From positions 434,001 to 498,000 of the forward strand of contig NZ_JACHCL010000003.1 in the NCBI RefSeq assembly GCF_014200725.1: 64,000 nt of DNA, given 5' to 3'. A model generated the notes under the pieces. It worked only from the letters and a program-made list of their open reading frames with translations. It was not told where the DNA came from and did not search any database. The DNA comes from Janthinobacterium silvisoli (GTDB taxonomy: Bacteria > Pseudomonadota > Gammaproteobacteria > Burkholderiales > Burkholderiaceae_D). This document shows, in pieces, positions 54,720 through 62,883 of this stretch (position 1 is its first letter; each line of letters opens with the position of its first letter). A program made the position numbers and the translations under genes.

Positions 54720-54884
54720 CAAACTATCCTTTTATTAAAAACGGGTACGACACGGCCAGCATGATAACAGCCGGAAAGCCGCCCTCTCCGACATCCGCTT
54801 GCGCCGCATCAAACCTGCCAGGGCCGTGCGGGCAGATGATTTGACTTCCAGCTGTCGCTTGTCGTGTTGTCGTGGAGAGTCGCC

Positions 54885-56306
54885 ATGGACCAGAAAGTCA
54901 TCGTGCCGGTCGAAGCCGTACTGACCCAATGCGTTTCCCTGCCCATCGGCTACGTGCCCACGCCGTCGGCGCCCTACCGCCAGCACCGCAAGAACGCCCA
55001 GCTGACCTTGCAGCCTGGTCCGCCACGCCTGAACGACATCAGCGGGCGTGTACTGGCTGCCGTGCCCGTCGGCTCGCGCATGCTGATCTGGAAGCAAGAC
55101 CCGTCCGTGAGCGAGCTGGGCACGCGCAAGGCCTTCGTGCCTGGGCTGATACTACAAGGCCCGCGCGATGCGCGTATCACGTTTGGCGAACCGGGTATCG
55201 CCCAGGTCAGCCCCAACGCCTTCGGCGACTTCATCGTCTCGCCCAATACCGACCAGTTCGACGCCGTGCACACCTTTGCCATCGTGCGCATGACCCTCAC
55301 CATGTATCAGCGCGCACTGGCCAGCATAGGCACGCCTTCGCCACTGCCCTGGCAATGGAATAGCGCCAGCAATACCGCCCCCTTGTCCGTATTTCCGCAC
55401 GGCTTGCCCAACGTCATGAACGCGTATTACAGCCGCAGCGACAAAGCCCTCAAGTTCGGCGACTTCATCCCCAGCGGCGCTACCGAACGTGTGTACACTT
55501 GCCGCTCGCTCGACATCGTCTCGCATGAAACGGGGCACGCCGTGCTCGATGGATTGAAACCACAGTGGCTGCTCAGCAACAACCCGCCGCAGACGGGCGG
55601 CTTGCACGAATCGTTCGGCGACCTGACGGCCATCTTCCTGGCCCTGTCGCAGCTGGACCAGGTGGAAGCAGTGATCGCCCAGACCAAATCCGACTTGCAC
55701 GATAAAACCTTCCTGGCCGACCTGGCCGAACAGTTCGGCCTGGCGCTGGGCCGCCCGAATGGCTTGCGCAACGCCGACAATGACATCAAGCTGTCTGAAG
55801 CGGGCACGGAAGTGCATGCGATTTCACAAGTCTTTACGGGCGCCATCTATGACATCCTGGCCGACATCTTTTCCCATGAACGCCAGCCGCAGGTGGAAGA
55901 CGACGCCGCCGTGCTGCACCGCTGCGGCGACTACCTGCGCGGCCTGGTGCTACGCGCCCTGCTGGCCTCCCCCAACCAGGCGGCCAGCTATGCCGATGTG
56001 GCAAACCATATGCTGGCCATCGCCAGCGCTGACGGCAAGGGTGGCTATCTCGATTTCATCCACAGCAGTTTCACGCGGCGCGAAGTACTTAGCGACACGC
56101 TCAGTGCAGGCGTGGGCGTGGACATGGGCGGCGAACATACAGGCTATGCTCCTGGCATCGTCGATGAAGCCGGCGCCGTACAAGACCGGCGCGCCTGCTG
56201 CGGCACCATGAACCACGCCCAATACAGCACATCGGACGAGGAACTCGATGCGGAACGGGCCGCGCTGGCCGCCTGGTGCCGCGACTATGCCTGCAGAACC
56301 GAGTAA
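54885..56306 (+). CDS. M4-like (gluzincin) metalloprotease, no signal peptide
   Basis: 473 residues from ATG 54885 with GGAG upstream. A zinc-protease site is clear: VSHETGHAVLD with His214, Glu215 and His218, and a third ligand Glu242 in GGLHESFGDLTAIF, like the NEAFSD motif of thermolysin relatives. N-terminal 150 residues carry no signal peptide or propeptide hallmark, so it may act in the cytosol or leave by another route. The next gene encodes an emfourin-like inhibitor, only 22 bp on, as in protealysin operons. Unusual: ligand spacing is longer than in thermolysin and the length differs from protealysin (about 340). Confidence 0.8.
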   Translation: MDQKVIVPVEAVLTQCVSLPIGYVPTPSAPYRQHRKNAQLTLQPGPPRLNDISGRVLAAVPVGSRMLIWKQDPSVSELGTRKAFVPGLILQGPRDARITFGEPGIAQVSPNAFGDFIVSPNTDQFDAVHTFAIVRMTLTMYQRALASIGTPSPLPWQWNSASNTAPLSVFPHGLPNVMNAYYSRSDKALKFGDFIPSGATERVYTCRSLDIVSHETGHAVLDGLKPQWLLSNNPPQTGGLHESFGDLTAIFLALSQLDQVEAVIAQTKSDLHDKTFLADLAEQFGLALGRPNGLRNADNDIKLSEAGTEVHAISQVFTGAIYDILADIFSHERQPQVEDDAAVLHRCGDYLRGLVLRALLASPNQAASYADVANHMLAIASADGKGGYLDFIHSSFTRREVLSDTLSAGVGVDMGGEHTGYAPGIVDEAGAVQDRRACCGTMNHAQYSTSDEELDAERAALAAWCRDYACRTE

Positions 56307-56328
56307 CCCACCCATCACAGGGAGCGCC

Positions 56329-56616
56329 ATGAAAATCTCAGCAAGCAGCAGCGGCGGCTTTGCCGGCCTGCATGAACACTATGAAATCGATACACAAACC
56401 CATCCTTCCGGCCACAAGCTCGAAGCAGCGCTGGCCAGCAGCGGTTTCTTCAATGGCAGCATGGCAAGCGAAACCGCCGTGGGGGCAGACATGGTCCATT
56501 GGCGCATCACCGTCGACGCTCCCGATGCACGCCGCACGATCAGCTTTGCCGAAGATGGCAGCGCTGAAAATACCCGCTGGCAAACCCTGGTGGCGCAAAT
56601 CCGCGCCGCCAACTGA
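56329..56616 (+). CDS. Emfourin-like metalloprotease inhibitor
   Basis: 95 residues from ATG 56329, GGGAG upstream. The opening [19 protein letters not shown] and the later ADMVHWRITVDA and RRTISFAEDG fit emfourin, the small cytosolic inhibitor of protealysin that is encoded directly after the protease. Placement and size agree. I base this on the family pattern and context. It may protect the cell from the protease upstream. Confidence 0.75.
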   Translation: MKISASSSGGFAGLHEHYEIDTQTHPSGHKLEAALASSGFFNGSMASETAVGADMVHWRITVDAPDARRTISFAEDGSAENTRWQTLVAQIRAAN

Positions 56617-57174: not shown

Positions 57175-57347
57175 GCTTTAAAAACATGATTAATGATCTT
57201 TTCATACAAGTGTGGCGCATAAACACACTAGGGCGCAAAGTGTGGCCCTGTGCGCGGTAAAGCACATTTTGTCCTCTCCATCTATCGTAGAATTAGATTA
57301 TGATATTTGAGCCGATATTGGCGCTTGGAATTAAACAAGGACTCTAT

Positions 57348-58568
57348 ATGCTTTACCAACTGCACGAACTGCAACGCTCCTTCCTCACCCCGGTGATGCA
57401 ATGGGCAGACATGTCCTCCAAGTTATTTACCAACCCGGTTTCCCCTCTGGCCCACACCCCGTTTTCGCAACGCATCGCAGCCGGTTACGAGCTGATGTAC
57501 CGCCTTGGCAAAGACTATGAAAAACCGCAATTTGACATAAAATCCGTGCTCGTCAAGGGCGAGAGCGTCGACATCCTCGAACACGTTGTCGTGACCAAAC
57601 CGTTTTGCCGTTTGATCCATTTCAAGAAAGAAGCCACTGGCTTGCAACAGCCTAAGGTTTTGCTGGTTGCCCCCCTGTCCGGTCACCATTCAACCCTGCT
57701 GCGCGATACGGTGCGCAGCTTGCTGGCCGAGCACGATGTCTACGTCACCGACTGGACCGACGCGCGCATGGTTCCGCTGACGCAAGGCCCGTTCCACCTG
57801 GATGATTACATTTACTATGTGCAAGAGTTCATCCGCCTGCTGGCGCCCGACCTGCACGTGATCTCTGTCTGTCAGCCAACCGTGCCGGTGCTGGCCGCCA
57901 TCTCGCTGATGGCGACTGCCAACGATCCGCACATGCCAAAGACCATGACGATGATGGGCGGCCCGATCGATCCGCGCCGCTCGCCCACGCAAGTAAACAA
58001 CCTGGCGACGGAAAAGAAATTCTCGTGGTTTGAAAACACCGTGATCTACGCAGTGCCGCCGAATTACCCGGGCTTTGGCCGCAAGGTCTATCCGGGCTTC
58101 CTACAGCACGCGGGCTTTATCGCCATGAATCCCGGCCGCCACGCACAAAGCCACCGCGAGTTCTATATGCACCTGGTGACGGGCGACGACGAACCGGCGG
58201 AAGGCCATCGCCAGTTCTACAATGAGTACAACGCGGTGCTGGACATGCCGGCCGAATACTATCTGGAAACGATTAAAACTGTCTTCCAGGAATTCAGCCT
58301 GCCGAAAGGCACCTGGAAAGTAGGCGGCCAGCTGGTGCGTCCGCAAGACATCACCAACGTGGCGCTATTCACGGTAGAAGGCGAGCTGGACGATATTTCC
58401 GGCGCTGGCCAGACACAGGCGGCCCACGATCTGTGCAGCAGCATCCCCGCACACATGCAGCAAGACTTCGTGGCGCCGAAATGCGGCCACTACGGCATCT
58501 TCTCGGGCCGCCGCTGGCGTGAAATCATTTGCCCGAAAATCGGCGAATTCATCCAGAAGCATGGCTAA
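57348..58568 (+). CDS. phaZ: Intracellular polyhydroxybutyrate depolymerase
   Basis: 406 residues from ATG 57348, preceded by AAGGA; the frame is open for 16 codons upstream without similarity. An alpha/beta-hydrolase of the intracellular PHB depolymerase family: the nucleophile elbow is VISVCQPTVP with Cys175, the residue used by the Ralstonia enzyme, and a C-terminal His in APKCGHYGIF. It breaks down stored PHB in granules. Consistent with the PHA-system small protein at 54435. Ends in a terminator shared with the dioxygenase-family gene. Confidence 0.92.
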   Translation: MLYQLHELQRSFLTPVMQWADMSSKLFTNPVSPLAHTPFSQRIAAGYELMYRLGKDYEKPQFDIKSVLVKGESVDILEHVVVTKPFCRLIHFKKEATGLQQPKVLLVAPLSGHHSTLLRDTVRSLLAEHDVYVTDWTDARMVPLTQGPFHLDDYIYYVQEFIRLLAPDLHVISVCQPTVPVLAAISLMATANDPHMPKTMTMMGGPIDPRRSPTQVNNLATEKKFSWFENTVIYAVPPNYPGFGRKVYPGFLQHAGFIAMNPGRHAQSHREFYMHLVTGDDEPAEGHRQFYNEYNAVLDMPAEYYLETIKTVFQEFSLPKGTWKVGGQLVRPQDITNVALFTVEGELDDISGAGQTQAAHDLCSSIPAHMQQDFVAPKCGHYGIFSGRRWREIICPKIGEFIQKHG

Positions 58569-58579
58569 TCTGGAGCACT

Positions 58580-58621
58580 GAAAAAACGGCACGCCAGCGC
58601 AAGCTGACGTGCCGTTTTTTT
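58580..58621. terminator. Bidirectional terminator after phaZ
   Basis: AAAAAACGGCACG...CAGC, GCAA loop, GCTG...CGTGCCGTTTTTT. A long stem with one mismatch, T-runs on both strands. Confidence 0.88.
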
Positions 58622-59303
58622 ATGCGCGCGAGGTTTCTACCTTTACCGTCGGGCGCGTATTGACATAGATCTGTTCCACCCGCGGCTCACCCGGCCCCGG
58701 CTTCTTCATCGCGTAACCATTCACGGGTTGCGAGCGGTTCACCCACAGCGCGTAATACAAATGGTCAGCGCGCGGATCATCGGTGTTCGGATGGATCAGG
58801 ATAGTCAGGCCCAGGCTGTTCAATTGCAGCCATGGCACGATCACGGGCAGCAAGTCATTGGTGAAACCAAAATAAAACGACGGCGTCACGTGCGGGCCGC
58901 GCGGCTCCAGGTTCCAGTCGCCCAGTTCGACCGAGAAACGCTCGGCCGCCCATTTTCGTATCAGCGCCGCCTTCTGGTAAGTATCTTCGTCAAAATAGAT
59001 ATGCGCGTGATAGCTCTCGATATCGGTATAGGCGCGCGGTTTCGTTGGCAAGGTTTCTTCGCCAGGGCGTACGCTGACGGGGCGCGGCGTGGGTGCCGTA
59101 TCTGTATGTTCGCCCCACGGGCTTTTGCCGGGCGCCGGTTTCACGCGTGCAGGCTTGGCCTCTTGCGCCAGGGCCGTGCCCGCCAGGCCGGAAGCGGCCA
59201 GGGCCGCCACCAGGCCGCCGCCGCGCAATACCTTGCGGCGTTGCGGCGATAATAAATTAGCCCATTCCAGGTCGATGGCGGCGTGTTCAGTATGGTCAGA
59301 CAT
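58620..59303 (-). CDS. Tat-exported DOPA 4,5-dioxygenase-family protein
   Basis: 227 residues from ATG 59303, AGGA upstream. A twin-arginine signal is visible: SPQRRKVLRGGG (Arg22-Arg23), a hydrophobic stretch and ALA-Q cleavage near 46. The C-terminal 130 residues match the DOPA-dioxygenase family: ESYHAHIYFDED with His99 and His101, RGPHVTPSFYFGF with His138, TILIHPNTDD and RADHLYYALWVN. Usual members are cytosolic and about 110 residues; this one adds a Tat signal and a linker, placing the putative ring-cleaving domain in the periplasm. It follows the TBDR at 59344 by 40 bp. Confidence 0.83.
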   Translation of the reverse strand: MSDHTEHAAIDLEWANLLSPQRRKVLRGGGLVAALAASGLAGTALAQEAKPARVKPAPGKSPWGEHTDTAPTPRPVSVRPGEETLPTKPRAYTDIESYHAHIYFDEDTYQKAALIRKWAAERFSVELGDWNLEPRGPHVTPSFYFGFTNDLLPVIVPWLQLNSLGLTILIHPNTDDPRADHLYYALWVNRSQPVNGYAMKKPGPGEPRVEQIYVNTRPTVKVETSRA

Positions 59304-59343
59304 GTGGTTTCCTGTTCTTGATTATCAGTAATGGAGGAATAAA

Positions 59344-61899
59344 TTAAAAACGGACGGTGGCGCGGGCGTAGTAATAGCCGCCCAGCACACCCAATGGTCC
59401 CGAGTTGTCATAGGCGCCCGTGTATTGCGCCAGATTCGAGGCGCTGCGCGCTTCACGCGGCACCTGGCTCGGCTTCTGGTTGAAGACGTTGTTGGCGCCC
59501 ACAGTCACGTTGATGCGCTTGCTGATGTCGTAGCCCAGGCTCAAGTCCGTCACGAACGCCGCTTTCAGCTGATAGTCGCCACCCGTGATGGCGTTCAGGC
59601 GTTTCAGCTTGCCGTAGCGCGTCTCGCGCAGATTGAAAGTCCAGCCTGCCTTTTCATAGGCCATAGTGACGATTTCCTTGTCGCGTGGTGCGCGGTACAG
59701 CAAATCGTATTCGGCCGATTTGCTGAGCGTGCCGATATTGGGCAAGCCTTGCAGCACGGCCGGCAAGTCTGCCTTGCTCACCAGGCTCGTATGATTGAAA
59801 TTGGCGGCCGCCGTCCAGCGCAGCTTGCCATCGGCCAGGCGCAGCACATCTTCCGCCGTCAGATCGATGCCACGCGTGCGTGTGTCGCCCACGTTGGTGA
59901 AGTAATGCGCGACCAGGCCATTGCCGACCGTCAAGCCCGCCGAGCGCAGCAGGTTTTCGATGGTGGCCGCCTGCGCCGCCGTCAGCGGCCGTCCGCTGCC
60001 ATCGAGCGCCACGCCCGAACTGCGGTCGATGCCAATATTCGACGATACGCCCAGGCGATCGCTGACCTTGATCTGGTAAGCATCGACGGCAAAGCGCAGG
60101 GTCGACGTCGGGTTGAAAGTCAGGCCAGCCGAAAAATTGGTCGATTTTTCCGGTTGTAAAGGCTGTGCTCCCAACGCCTTGGCGGCAGCCGAGCTCGGTT
60201 GTGCAAGGGTATAAGGCACGCCCGCGTGGTCCGAGGTATTCGAATACGACTGCGTCACCAGGCTGGGCGCATGGAAACCATTGCTGACCGTGCCGCGCAC
60301 GGCAAACGCGGGATCAATGTCATAGCGCGCCGACAAGCGGCCCGTACTCTTGCTGCCAAAGTCCGAGTATTTTTCCGCACGCAAGGCGGTATCAACCAGC
60401 AACTGCGGCGTGACCTTTGTTCCCAGGCCGATGTAGGCGGCGTAGCTGTGGCGCGCCGTGTCCGATGCATCGACGGGCAAATAACCGGCCAGCGCCGAGG
60501 AACCGCTGCCCTGGTAAGAAGCCGGTTCGCCGGGACTGCGCTGCTGCGTTTCATGCGAGTATTCCAGGCCGATGCTCAAATCTGCAGGCTCGGCCAGGCC
60601 CAGCGCCACCGGGCGGCGCACGTCGAAATTGCTGGTCGAACGGCTATAGCGCTGGTTGCCGATATAAAAACTGGTTTGTCCACCCGGGTAGCTGAGCGAG
60701 TAATTGGCGGAACTCTCCACGCCGACATCGATATCGTCACGGCCATAGGTGGTGCTGAAATCCCAGGCCCAGCCCGCCGCTTCGCCCTTGAGACCACCCG
60801 TCAGCGAAAAATCGTCTTCGCTGGTGGTTTCATAGGGCGTAAAGCCGTCCGGATAGACGGACAGCAAGCCACGGTTGTTATTGAAAATGGTGTTAGGCAG
60901 GCGGAAATTCTGCGCCGAGCGGGCATTGCGGTGGGCATAAGTGCCGAAACCGTAGACTTGTACCTCGTCCGACACCTCATACCCGAGGTTGGCGCTGAGC
61001 GAGGCGGTGCTGCTTTCCGGCACGCCCGTATTGCGCCACGGGTTGCTGTTGCGCGTCGCTTCGGCCGGGTTCGGCGAAGCGCCGGCCGGCAAGCTATTGT
61101 TCGGTCCCAGGCGCACCAATTGTCCATCGCTGTTGCGCAAGGCCGGGTACGACAGATAGCCAGGATTCAAGCCGAAATTGCGCACGGCAATACCCTGGCG
61201 CTGGTATTCGGCGCCGAAGTGGGCAAAGCCCCGCTCGCCTAAACGCGTGCCGCCATCCACACGCACGTAGCCGTTGGCGCCATCGCCCGCATTGGTGGAG
61301 CCCGCTTGCGTACTGGCAGTGAAGCTGTCATCGGATTTCAGGATGATGTTGATCACGCCGGCAATCGCATCGGAGCCGTAGATGGCCGAGGCGCCATCGC
61401 GCAAGATTTCCACCCGCGCAATCGCGCCCGTGGGTATCAAGGCCAGATCGGTGGCCACCGAACCCGGGAAGCCATCTTCATTGACGATAGCCGTCGTATG
61501 CCGGCGCTTGCCGTTGACCAGCACCAGAGTATGCGAAGGATCAAGATTGCGCAGCTGGCCGGCGCGCACGATGCTACCCAGGTCAGGCTGCACCCTGGCC
61601 GGTAAATTAAACGAGGGCAAGGCCGAGTCGAGCGCATCGAGCAAATTGAGCTTGCCGGTCGCCACCAGCTGCTGCGCGCTGATCACATCGACAGGCGCGG
61701 CACTGTTATCGACGGTGCGGCCCGAACCACGCGCGCCGGTGACGATCACGGCATCGAGCGGGTTGGCGGCGGTATCGGCGGATACTTGCGCATGGGCAAT
61801 ACCAACCTGCGCCAGCAACAACACGGCGACTGACACCGCCTCTGCCAGCCGCCGTAAACGTGGTGCGGAGGAACGCACGGAATCAGACAACACTTGCAT
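59344..61899 (-). CDS. TonB-dependent receptor 6
   Basis: 851 residues from ATG 61899, AGGA upstream; the frame reaches 61926 but this ATG has the better site. Signal peptide LAEAVSVAVLLLAQVGIAHA, then DAVIVTGARGSGRTVDNSAA. Plug with SHTLVLVNGKRRHTTAIVNE and SAIYGSDAIAGVINIILK; barrel with GTVSNGFHAPSLVTQ, LQPEKSTNFSAGLTF and C-terminal ARATVRF. It is followed by the Tat-dioxygenase gene, so the pair may take up and process one compound (inference). Ligand unknown. Confidence 0.9.
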   Translation of the reverse strand: MQVLSDSVRSSAPRLRRLAEAVSVAVLLLAQVGIAHAQVSADTAANPLDAVIVTGARGSGRTVDNSAAPVDVISAQQLVATGKLNLLDALDSALPSFNLPARVQPDLGSIVRAGQLRNLDPSHTLVLVNGKRRHTTAIVNEDGFPGSVATDLALIPTGAIARVEILRDGASAIYGSDAIAGVINIILKSDDSFTASTQAGSTNAGDGANGYVRVDGGTRLGERGFAHFGAEYQRQGIAVRNFGLNPGYLSYPALRNSDGQLVRLGPNNSLPAGASPNPAEATRNSNPWRNTGVPESSTASLSANLGYEVSDEVQVYGFGTYAHRNARSAQNFRLPNTIFNNNRGLLSVYPDGFTPYETTSEDDFSLTGGLKGEAAGWAWDFSTTYGRDDIDVGVESSANYSLSYPGGQTSFYIGNQRYSRSTSNFDVRRPVALGLAEPADLSIGLEYSHETQQRSPGEPASYQGSGSSALAGYLPVDASDTARHSYAAYIGLGTKVTPQLLVDTALRAEKYSDFGSKSTGRLSARYDIDPAFAVRGTVSNGFHAPSLVTQSYSNTSDHAGVPYTLAQPSSAAAKALGAQPLQPEKSTNFSAGLTFNPTSTLRFAVDAYQIKVSDRLGVSSNIGIDRSSGVALDGSGRPLTAAQAATIENLLRSAGLTVGNGLVAHYFTNVGDTRTRGIDLTAEDVLRLADGKLRWTAAANFNHTSLVSKADLPAVLQGLPNIGTLSKSAEYDLLYRAPRDKEIVTMAYEKAGWTFNLRETRYGKLKRLNAITGGDYQLKAAFVTDLSLGYDISKRINVTVGANNVFNQKPSQVPREARSASNLAQYTGAYDNSGPLGVLGGYYYARATVRF

Positions 61900-62139
61900 A
61901 CAAACATCCTTTTTAATAGTCAACAAGACAATGTCTGCAGACTAAGGGATGGACAAACAAACAAGAACGAATGGTTTCGTATTAGGTTATTTCGTTTTGG
62001 CAAGACGCAACAGTTGGTGAGAATTGAGTGGTGCACGCAGACGGCGTATTCCCTTCCATACAACAGGGTTTTTTACTTGTGTTTACTTGTATATGGCCCG
62101 GATGGCCGATAATGGCGTTTTAGCGTATTGAAGAAGACC

Positions 62140-62883
62140 GTGCCACACCCAGCTCCCCCATCACTTGCCGACCAGATTGAAGACTTGCTGCCGCAAACGC
62201 AGTGCACCAAATGCGGTTACAGCGGTTGCCGCCCGTATGCCGATGCAATCGCCGCAGGCAGCGCCGAGATCAACCAGTGCCCGCCCGGCGGCGCACAGGG
62301 CGTGGTCCGCATGGCCAGCCTGCTGGGCAAAAAAGTCATTCCCCTCAATCCAGTCAATGGCTATGAACGCCCGCGCTCGCTGGCCTACATCGATGAGTCG
62401 CTGTGTATCGGCTGCACCCTGTGTATCCAGGCTTGCCCGGTTGACGCCATCGTCGGTGCGGCCAAGCAGATGCATACGGTGGTAAGCGAGCTGTGCACGG
62501 GCTGCGACCTGTGCGTGGCGCCCTGTCCCGTCGATTGCATCGTCATGTACCCGGTCAGCGGCGAGGCCACCGGCTGGGACGCCTGGAGCCAGGCCGAAGC
62601 CGACGATGCACGCGCGCGCCACGACTTGCGCACGCAGCGCTTGCGCCGTGAGGCGGAAGAAAACGAAGCGCGCCTGGCCGCCAAGGCCGTCGCCAAGATG
62701 CAGGAAGTGACACAGGAAGTAGCGGTCACGCCCGAAGAAACCGCCGAAAAGGAACGCAAGCGCGCCATCATCGCCGCCGCCATGGAGCGCGCGCGCGCCA
62801 AGGCCGCCGCTGCAGCAACCAGCGCCAGCACGAACGAACCGCCAGCCCCTGACGTATCCACCGTACCGAAAAAAGACGCATGA
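62140..62883 (+). CDS. rsxB: RnfB/RsxB-type iron-sulfur protein
   Basis: About 247 residues from GTG 62140; a TTG at 62128 is also possible. The N-terminal 4Fe domain has Cys22, Cys25, Cys30 and Cys47 ([18 protein letters not shown]), then two 4Fe-4S ferredoxin motifs [16 protein letters not shown] and [17 protein letters not shown] long Ala/Glu/Arg-rich tail follows. The N-terminal membrane anchor of true RnfB is missing and no other rnf gene is near, so it may be a soluble electron carrier. Its stop overlaps the nth start. Confidence 0.85.

Follow-up and report, generated by a model that had tools for sequence, protein, structure and literature searches.

In a 64,000-nucleotide stretch of the genome of Janthinobacterium silvisoli, a soil/water bacterium (contig NZ_JACHCL010000003.1, positions 434,001 to 498,000; hereafter the window), a gene for a TonB-dependent receptor stands next to a gene for an exported protein of the DOPA 4,5-dioxygenase family (PF08883). 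We consider it fairly likely that the pair is a two-gene operon of a sulfur-starvation regulon, which would serve the uptake and periplasmic processing of organosulfur compounds. The part of this proposal that can be read directly from sequence comprises the gene order, the signal of twin-arginine translocation (Tat) type, the conserved pairing, a box upstream of the operon together with the company that it keeps, and the sulfur-type islands around some relatives.

A probable receptor-dioxygenase operon

The two open reading frames are co-directional on the minus strand (59344-61899, 851 amino acids (aa) from ATG, and 58620-59303, 227 aa) with a gap of 40 bp, which confirms that they are an adjacent pair. 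Both flanking genes, a polyhydroxybutyrate (PHB)-depolymerase-like gene (57300-58568, plus strand) and a gene for a ferredoxin-type Fe-S protein (62128-62883, plus strand), point the other way, so that the receptor and dioxygenase genes probably form a single operon. The dioxygenase-family gene at 58620-59303 is the single PF08883 gene of the window genome. The features are as follows.

61966..61990, minus strand: sulfur-type operator-like box ATAW-N6-RCGAAANNATTCGTT, 25 bp, with a palindromic core, 66 bp 5' of the receptor start (alignment, motif scans)
59344..61899, minus strand: TonB-dependent receptor, 851 aa, Plug and barrel; TonB-box-like DAVIVTGA, by eye (profile matches)
59304..59343, minus strand: 40-bp gap from the receptor stop to the dioxygenase start (sequence)
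58620..59303, minus strand: DOPA 4,5-dioxygenase-family protein with a Tat signal, 227 aa (PF08883 profile, AlphaFold2 model, fold matches)
59166..59303, minus strand: twin-arginine signal region, residues 1-46, RR at 22-23, likely cut ALA/Q (read from sequence)
58719..59012, minus strand: PF08883 domain, residues 98-195, with H99, H101, H138, H171 and H181 kept and N131 (profile match, alignment)
58584..58619, no strand: stem-loop with T-runs on both strands, between the dioxygenase gene and the convergent PHB-depolymerase-like gene; likely a shared terminator of the convergent genes (read directly from sequence)

A sulfur-type box precedes the operon

In an alignment of the region 5' of the receptor gene (18 sequences, the window and 17 loci), a block is conserved in all except the Rudaea row. 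The corresponding box is present on the proper strand before the head of the operon at each of the 38 Oxalobacteraceae loci, never with more than two mismatches and at 32 of them without any; these loci come from two genome sets (12 + 26) with at least five genomes in both, and the gene is broken in two of them (L113 and L166). At Oxalobacteraceae loci that have no receptor, the box lies directly before the dioxygenase gene itself. None of 18 loci of other PF08883 members carries it upstream on the strand of the gene, one locus (L117) having a single weak match (at most three mismatches) elsewhere.

The 15-bp core of the box occurs three times in the 5.9-Mb window genome, compared with no occurrence for a reversed control and about 0.15 expected from base composition. 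One copy is at the promoter of the receptor/dioxygenase operon. Another lies in a divergent promoter. On one side of it are ssuE-ssuA-ssuD, whose three products score over the NCBIfam cut-offs, with permease and ATPase genes behind them that we read as ssuC-ssuB; on the other is a DszC/SfnB-like gene (under both cut-offs), after which come a gene resembling MetQ (by eye) and one for a monooxygenase of the NtaA/DmoA type. The third is at the promoter shared by genes for an EAL-domain protein and a class-II glutamine amidotransferase; a sulfate-binding-protein gene lies about 2 kb off, two genes away. When two mismatches are allowed, the box is found at eight places and the control at three, so that some of the eight may be due to chance. 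The further places are a second, degenerate copy at the EAL promoter, an sbp gene (followed by serine hydrolase, peroxiredoxin and ATP-binding cassette (ABC) permease genes and, about 2 kb beyond, by a LysR gene), an operon of cystathionine beta-synthase-like and gamma-lyase-like genes, an amino-acid ABC binding-protein gene, and a second receptor with an M14 carboxypeptidase gene. A comparable picture emerges from five other Oxalobacteraceae genomes, in which the neighbours were recognised by BLAST to window-genome proteins: with at most one mismatch there are 20 places, as against two for the control, namely this operon in each genome (five), ssuE-ssuA (three), an ssuA-like gene (one), an ssuB/ssuC-like gene (one), sbp (two), the EAL gene (three), the second receptor (one) and nothing recognised (four). 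On the evidence of these promoters, we read the box as the signature of a sulfur regulator's site, common to ssu, sbp and other sulfur promoters; the regulator would be CysB or an SsuR-like protein.

Two other genes with the box deserve mention. The second receptor (905 aa), with its M14 carboxypeptidase-like gene (G000:C4:19001-31000, L201), has a box with one mismatch and a 68% relative that also has the box in another genome (G464, L230); this is likely to be another sulfur-linked uptake unit. The EAL-domain gene carries a sulfur-type box in four genomes (G000:C1:528543-528635, which is L191, and L219, L220 and L233) and is divergent from the class-II glutamine amidotransferase gene in three, a possible link between cyclic di-GMP and sulfur supply.

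An exported clade of the PF08883 family

Residues 98-195 of the 227-aa protein match the PF08883 DOPA_dioxygen profile (3.3e-24; 85.6 bits versus a gathering cut-off of 25). At the N-terminus, pattern and eye find a twin-arginine stretch, LSPQRRKVLRGGG, followed by a hydrophobic stretch and a TALA/Q site. Since the RR motif, the hydrophobic stretch and the AxA site are all present, the protein is predicted to be exported by the Tat pathway. A scan of named genomes returned 57 loci, of which 44 fall in the exported clade by identity (at least 54%); three of these are truncated where a contig stops and a fourth (L166) is broken, which leaves 40 that can be assessed. Twin arginines precede the domain in 37 of the 40, bearing out the earlier note on this DNA, which had pointed to such a signal; two others have KR (L161, L162) and in one (L160) none was found. 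Immediately before the twin arginines, residues 11-23 follow the motif D-x-x-WA-x-x-L-[SA]P-x-RR, conserved in alpha-, beta- and gammaproteobacterial members and not in the Brevundimonas type; it is unusual for a signal peptide and is perhaps a chaperone site. A quick tree of 103 PF08883 rows, with long branches, unites the 52 exported rows in a single clade (SH-aLRT 91). In the same tree, a contig labelled 'Eremiobacteraeota' (L147) groups with Dyella and one from a 'Bordetella' metagenome-assembled genome (MAG; L158) with Brevundimonas, and both labels look doubtful.

The AlphaFold2 model (31 aligned sequences) has a mean predicted local distance difference test score (pLDDT) of 77.3, with 10-residue blocks at 86-98 across residues 91-220 and values under 50 at residues 30-53 and 71-77. 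It superposes on 2peb (Z 18.8, root-mean-square deviation 1.6, 115 residues aligned), which confirms the family fold, as well as on 2p8i (Z 17.1, deviation 1.4, 114 aligned) and 2nyh (Z 17.1). By Foldseek and VIA-align, these three are the only structures well above the background of ferredoxin-like and CutA folds; other fold relatives may exist. Five His residues in the motifs HAH, GPH, HPxT and DH are candidate metal ligands: H99 is kept in 45 of 46 exported rows and H101, H138, H171 and H181 in 46 of 46, and in the other PF08883 rows the same five are found in 51 of 51 each, except H181 (48 of 50). For His residues only, the passages seen of PMC12186922 served as a source. A sixth frequent His, at position 131, is replaced by Asn in all 46 exported rows that have a letter there, whereas it is His in 46 of 51 other family rows; as 2peb has Phe at the equivalent position, this residue does not define the family. 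The loss of metal-binding His residues in orthologues, which the earlier note named as a refutation, is not seen for the five candidate ligands. Further positions are fixed, or nearly so, in a different state in the exported clade, namely 135 (R for V), 144 (Y for Q), T140, F143, 145 and G146.

It is likely, judging from these residues, that the exported-clade protein binds metal, and Tat export would suit a protein that is loaded with metal in the cytoplasm. A PF08883 enzyme of Gluconacetobacter diazotrophicus, GdDODA, cleaves the ring of L-DOPA according to the part of PMC6426604 seen here. Given Asn131 and the other fixed changes, DOPA-type chemistry cannot be assumed for the exported clade, whose substrate, and perhaps reaction, would differ from those of DOPA dioxygenase. 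An alternative that we regard as possible, if doubtful, is that the clade has left ring cleavage altogether, the protein acting as a binding protein or performing other iron or thiol chemistry, such as sulfur oxidation, on an organosulfur compound. Asn131 and the clade-specific states R135, T140, F143, Y144 and G146 speak for such a change, whereas the retention of the five other conserved His residues and the fold matches to 2peb and 2nyh at Z 17-19 speak for continuity with the family.

Conservation of the pairing

Among 40 Janthinobacterium genomes, a match to the dioxygenase is found in 27, in one of which (G021) it covers only 35 residues. The receptor is present at 87% identity or more in 24 of the 40 and, by comparison of coordinates, abuts the dioxygenase gene in all 24, while two genomes (G002, G033) have the dioxygenase without the receptor. 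Fisher's test gives p 5e-9 (table 24/2/0/14, G021 scored as lacking), a value that is not a true probability as the genomes are related. The partial match in G021 is a remnant (L113) that retains the box and the last ~35 dioxygenase codons, the receptor and the rest of the gene having been lost. Across the taxonomic family, any PF08883 match is found in 53 of 244 genomes; of 397 genomes sampled evenly over the phylum, 64 match the window protein, mostly over the domain only.

Beyond the genus, we counted a receptor as directly upstream when it lay on the same strand with called starts within 310 bp or overlapping. By this measure, 22 of the 40 assessable exported-clade loci, genus included, have one. 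The pairing pointed out in the earlier note is firm within the genus, and outside it real without being universal. The partner receptors belong to two lineages about 32% alike: the window type, found in Oxalobacteraceae, Rudaea (57%) and Acetobacter malorum (60%), and the Brevundimonas type. In Caulobacter segnis, a Brevundimonas-type receptor lies 2.3 kb away in divergent orientation, with an M19 dipeptidase gene in between. On the PF08883 tree, the pairing label changes at least seven times. From this distribution across loci and tree, it appears that the exported protein is the constant part of the system and the receptor a frequent partner.

Sulfur context elsewhere in the exported clade

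Support for the sulfur reading that is independent of the box comes from Sphingobium (L205, L206 and L212; S. limneticum), where the gene for the exported protein adjoins genes for an NtaA/DmoA-type monooxygenase and an FAD protein, in a sulfonate-type island. Within about 23 kb, this island has SsuC-, SsuB-, SsuD- and SsuA-like genes, of which a single one, for SsuA, passes its subfamily cut-off; it also encodes a protein of the cysteine dioxygenase family, a rhodanese and a receptor with 33% identity to that of the window. On the contig of L147, labelled as a Candidatus Eremiobacteraeota MAG, the exported-protein gene (L209) is followed by ATP-grasp and LLM monooxygenase genes; next on the same strand, past one opposite-strand open reading frame, come genes for a receptor and an ABC importer of peptide type. 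Read partly by eye, the Sphingopyxis locus L210 has a receptor of the Brevundimonas type (56%) with peroxiredoxin-like and M19 genes. Running divergently from this group are an ATP-grasp-like gene, Met-type ABC genes and an LLM gene that shares 73% identity with its counterpart in L147; the exported-protein gene of this Sphingopyxis genome is on another contig (L146). In A. malorum (L149), three LLM genes lie near the pair, as does a cytosolic PF08883 gene with an MFS gene.

Several observations weigh against the proposal of a sulfur-starvation operon. No receptor is directly upstream at 18 of the 40 assessable loci. Outside Oxalobacteraceae, none of the 21 exported-clade loci has the box, even with three mismatches allowed (three of these sequences, L153, L155 and L159, begin at the gene, and no search was made in those families for other sulfur motifs), and in 17 of them the DNA examined gave no BLAST match to any of 17 query proteins of sulfur type. 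All 15 non-Oxalobacteraceae genomes searched have LLM genes, so that their presence alone says little and only close linkage counts, as seen in L147, L149 and L163. Two loci fit plain aromatic catabolism. A plasmid of Acinetobacter (NZ_CP015595.1, L234) encodes, in a single run, a receptor, an SBP_bac_6 ABC importer, an amidohydrolase, a cytosolic PF08883 protein and an ABC transporter, with no sulfur gene recognised, and a family member of UBA2369 (L162) stands beside ALDH, Amidohydro_2, LigB and HpcH genes, a cluster of aromatic-cleavage type. In view of the 17 loci without a query match and the ubiquity of LLM genes, the sulfur context outside Oxalobacteraceae is best regarded as supportive rather than general.

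These two loci bear on another explanation, in which a catechol or an aromatic of lignin type is taken up through the receptor and has its ring opened by the exported enzyme to give a product usable as carbon, the box being incidental or the site of a wider regulator. The activity of GdDODA on L-DOPA (PMC6426604, seen in part) and the gene content of L162 and L234 agree with it; nonetheless, no ring-cleavage pathway gene is present among the scanned neighbours in the window, and the box is common to ssu, sbp and cystathionine genes, which makes a carbon pathway unlikely. The Acinetobacter run is also an independent operon of a receptor with a DOPA-dioxygenase-family gene. It is one of 13 plasmid-borne relatives, all under 60% identity; of the four inspected, H12 is L234, H11 was uninformative, and H1 and H2 had no annotation near the match.

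In the portion of PMC11434297 available, a DOPA 4,5-dioxygenase family gene of Acinetobacter appears among indole-raised oxygenases with sfnG, tauD, ssuD and dszC; in the same portion, another list with tauD, ssuD and dszC does not include it. The listing is at most weak support for a sulfur link. The accessible parts of PMC12581299 and PMC2996968 name no such protein under sulfur starvation or chromate ('dopa' 0 times), and those of PMC5443232 and PMC12654741 contain nothing on a receptor-dioxygenase pair.

The receptor and the siderophore alternative

The 851-aa protein scores 66.5 bits for Plug (cut-off 23.9) and 127.7 bits for TonB_dep_Rec_b-barrel (cut-off 27). All 21 of its NCBIfam matches are under cut-off, including the siderophore-receptor model TIGR01783 (40 bits versus 223.5), and its resemblance to CirA, PirA, FepA and BtuB, in PDB and NCBIfam, is plug-level or partial only; for that reason, an assignment of subtype or substrate from such likeness was dropped. 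Receptors about 46-48% identical to that of the window (49-51% in a separate comparison) also occur without an adjacent dioxygenase (L178-L180; the neighbours of L178 are DUF6644 and M19 genes), so that receptor homology alone is no marker of the system.

The earlier note had suggested the import of a catechol-type compound or siderophore, followed by ring cleavage in the periplasm. Import with periplasmic processing is still the natural reading of the pair, whereas the iron version finds no support. In that version, the receptor would take up a ferric catecholate and cleavage of the catechol in the periplasm would free the iron. It could draw on the plug-level likeness to CirA, PirA and FepA and on the SBP_bac_6 importer of the Acinetobacter relative, an importer type that includes ferric ones. 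Against it stand the low TIGR01783 score, the occurrence of the box at sulfur genes, and the failure to find a Fur-like site in 61900-62127, where the best match to the one consensus used was 9/19, under the shuffled mean of 11. We therefore judge the siderophore system improbable, and the weakest of the three alternatives of changed chemistry, aromatic carbon use and siderophore uptake. As for the idea that the genes are functionally unrelated chance neighbours, the 18 loci without a receptor directly upstream could be cited in its favour, but it is already disfavoured and highly improbable given the 24 of 24 adjacent receptors in the genus, the two receptor lineages that both abut the exported-protein gene, the seven or more changes of the pairing label on the tree, and a box that stays at the operon head whether or not a receptor is present.

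A proposed route for organosulfur scavenging

Returning to the sulfur-starvation operon, we propose the following sequence of events. When sulfate and cysteine are short, a LysR-type regulator, presumably of the CysB/SsuR type, would act at the 25-bp box and switch the operon on. An organosulfur compound would then cross the outer membrane through the receptor. Once folded and loaded with its putative metal in the cytoplasm, the PF08883 protein would be exported by the Tat pathway and may open or oxidise this compound in the periplasm. The smaller product could enter through an ABC importer, and flavin monooxygenases of the Ssu/Sfn/Dsz type would free the sulfur in the cytoplasm.

Since both the catechol-enzyme fold and the sulfur control need explaining, our leading guess for the substrate is a catechol joined to sulfur, either an S-cysteinyl or S-glutathionyl catechol or a sulfated or sulfonated catechol. 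The M19 dipeptidases and the peptide- or Met-type importers near some relatives might suit cysteine or glutathione conjugates. It can be hypothesised, as a tentative extension, that under sulfur hunger the receptor imports such catechol-bound organosulfur (a thiol-quinone adduct, for instance S-cysteinyl or S-glutathionyl catechol, or a sulfated catechol), that the Tat-exported relative of DOPA dioxygenase opens the ring in the periplasm, and that ABC importers and flavin monooxygenases recover the sulfur.

Comparison with known systems

Much of the sulfur in soil is organic, and receptor-based scavenging of organosulfur is known in outline. SftP of Pseudomonas is an outer-membrane receptor for sulfate esters, induced by sulfate starvation, that works with a sulfatase; it resembles the window receptor in the organosulfur role proposed here and differs in its partner, which is not a PF08883 protein. 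The ssuEADCB and sfn systems have the box in common with the window operon, and in Sphingobium and L209 the exported protein is found in the company of LLM monooxygenase and importer genes. To our knowledge, the textbook ssu systems have neither a dedicated receptor nor an exported protein of ring-cleaving type. In Bacillus, a Gram-positive, salvage of S-conjugates relies on an importer and an LLM monooxygenase that free the sulfur, an arrangement similar to L209 and L210 but without a receptor or an exported dioxygenase-type protein. The idea of aromatic-ring cleavage outside the cytoplasm is shared with a secreted dioxygenase of Streptomyces, also Gram-positive, although that enzyme is intradiol and is linked to lignin carbon.

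GdDODA belongs to the same family of small enzymes, and its closest solved relative, 2NYH (46%), also matches the window model (PMC6426604, in part). The window protein differs from it in having about 80 more residues before HAH (Tat signal and linker), in N131 and the other fixed changes, and in the position of its gene behind a receptor. The first GdDODA peptide in the part of PMC6426604 seen starts 18 residues before HAH, which leaves no room for a Tat signal.

The solved relatives from Burkholderia xenovorans (2nyh/2p8i) and Nostoc punctiforme (2peb), with 32-38% identity to the window protein over the domain and Z 17-19, have chains of 115-122 residues, likewise without room for an export signal, and were deposited as putative dioxygenases only. 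Our literature search found no paper on a receptor paired with an exported PF08883 protein, most subscription papers lying outside its coverage and spellings of '4,5-dioxygenase' with a comma possibly being missed.

We know of no described exported PF08883 component, nor of its sulfur box. The passage of larger organosulfur compounds through the outer membrane is poorly understood, and a receptor with an exported member of the betalain-type ring-opening family, tied to sulfur genes by the box and by the Sphingobium island, is a testable candidate for a new substrate class. The operon would place an exported enzyme clade in a physiological setting, which it has lacked so far, and it suggests an undescribed way of scavenging sulfur rather than iron.

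Elsewhere in the window, an M4-peptidase-like gene (54864-56306; 18.8 bits, under the Pfam cut-off) overlaps an emfourin gene (56248-56616), an arrangement that we take to resemble the protealysin-inhibitor pair.

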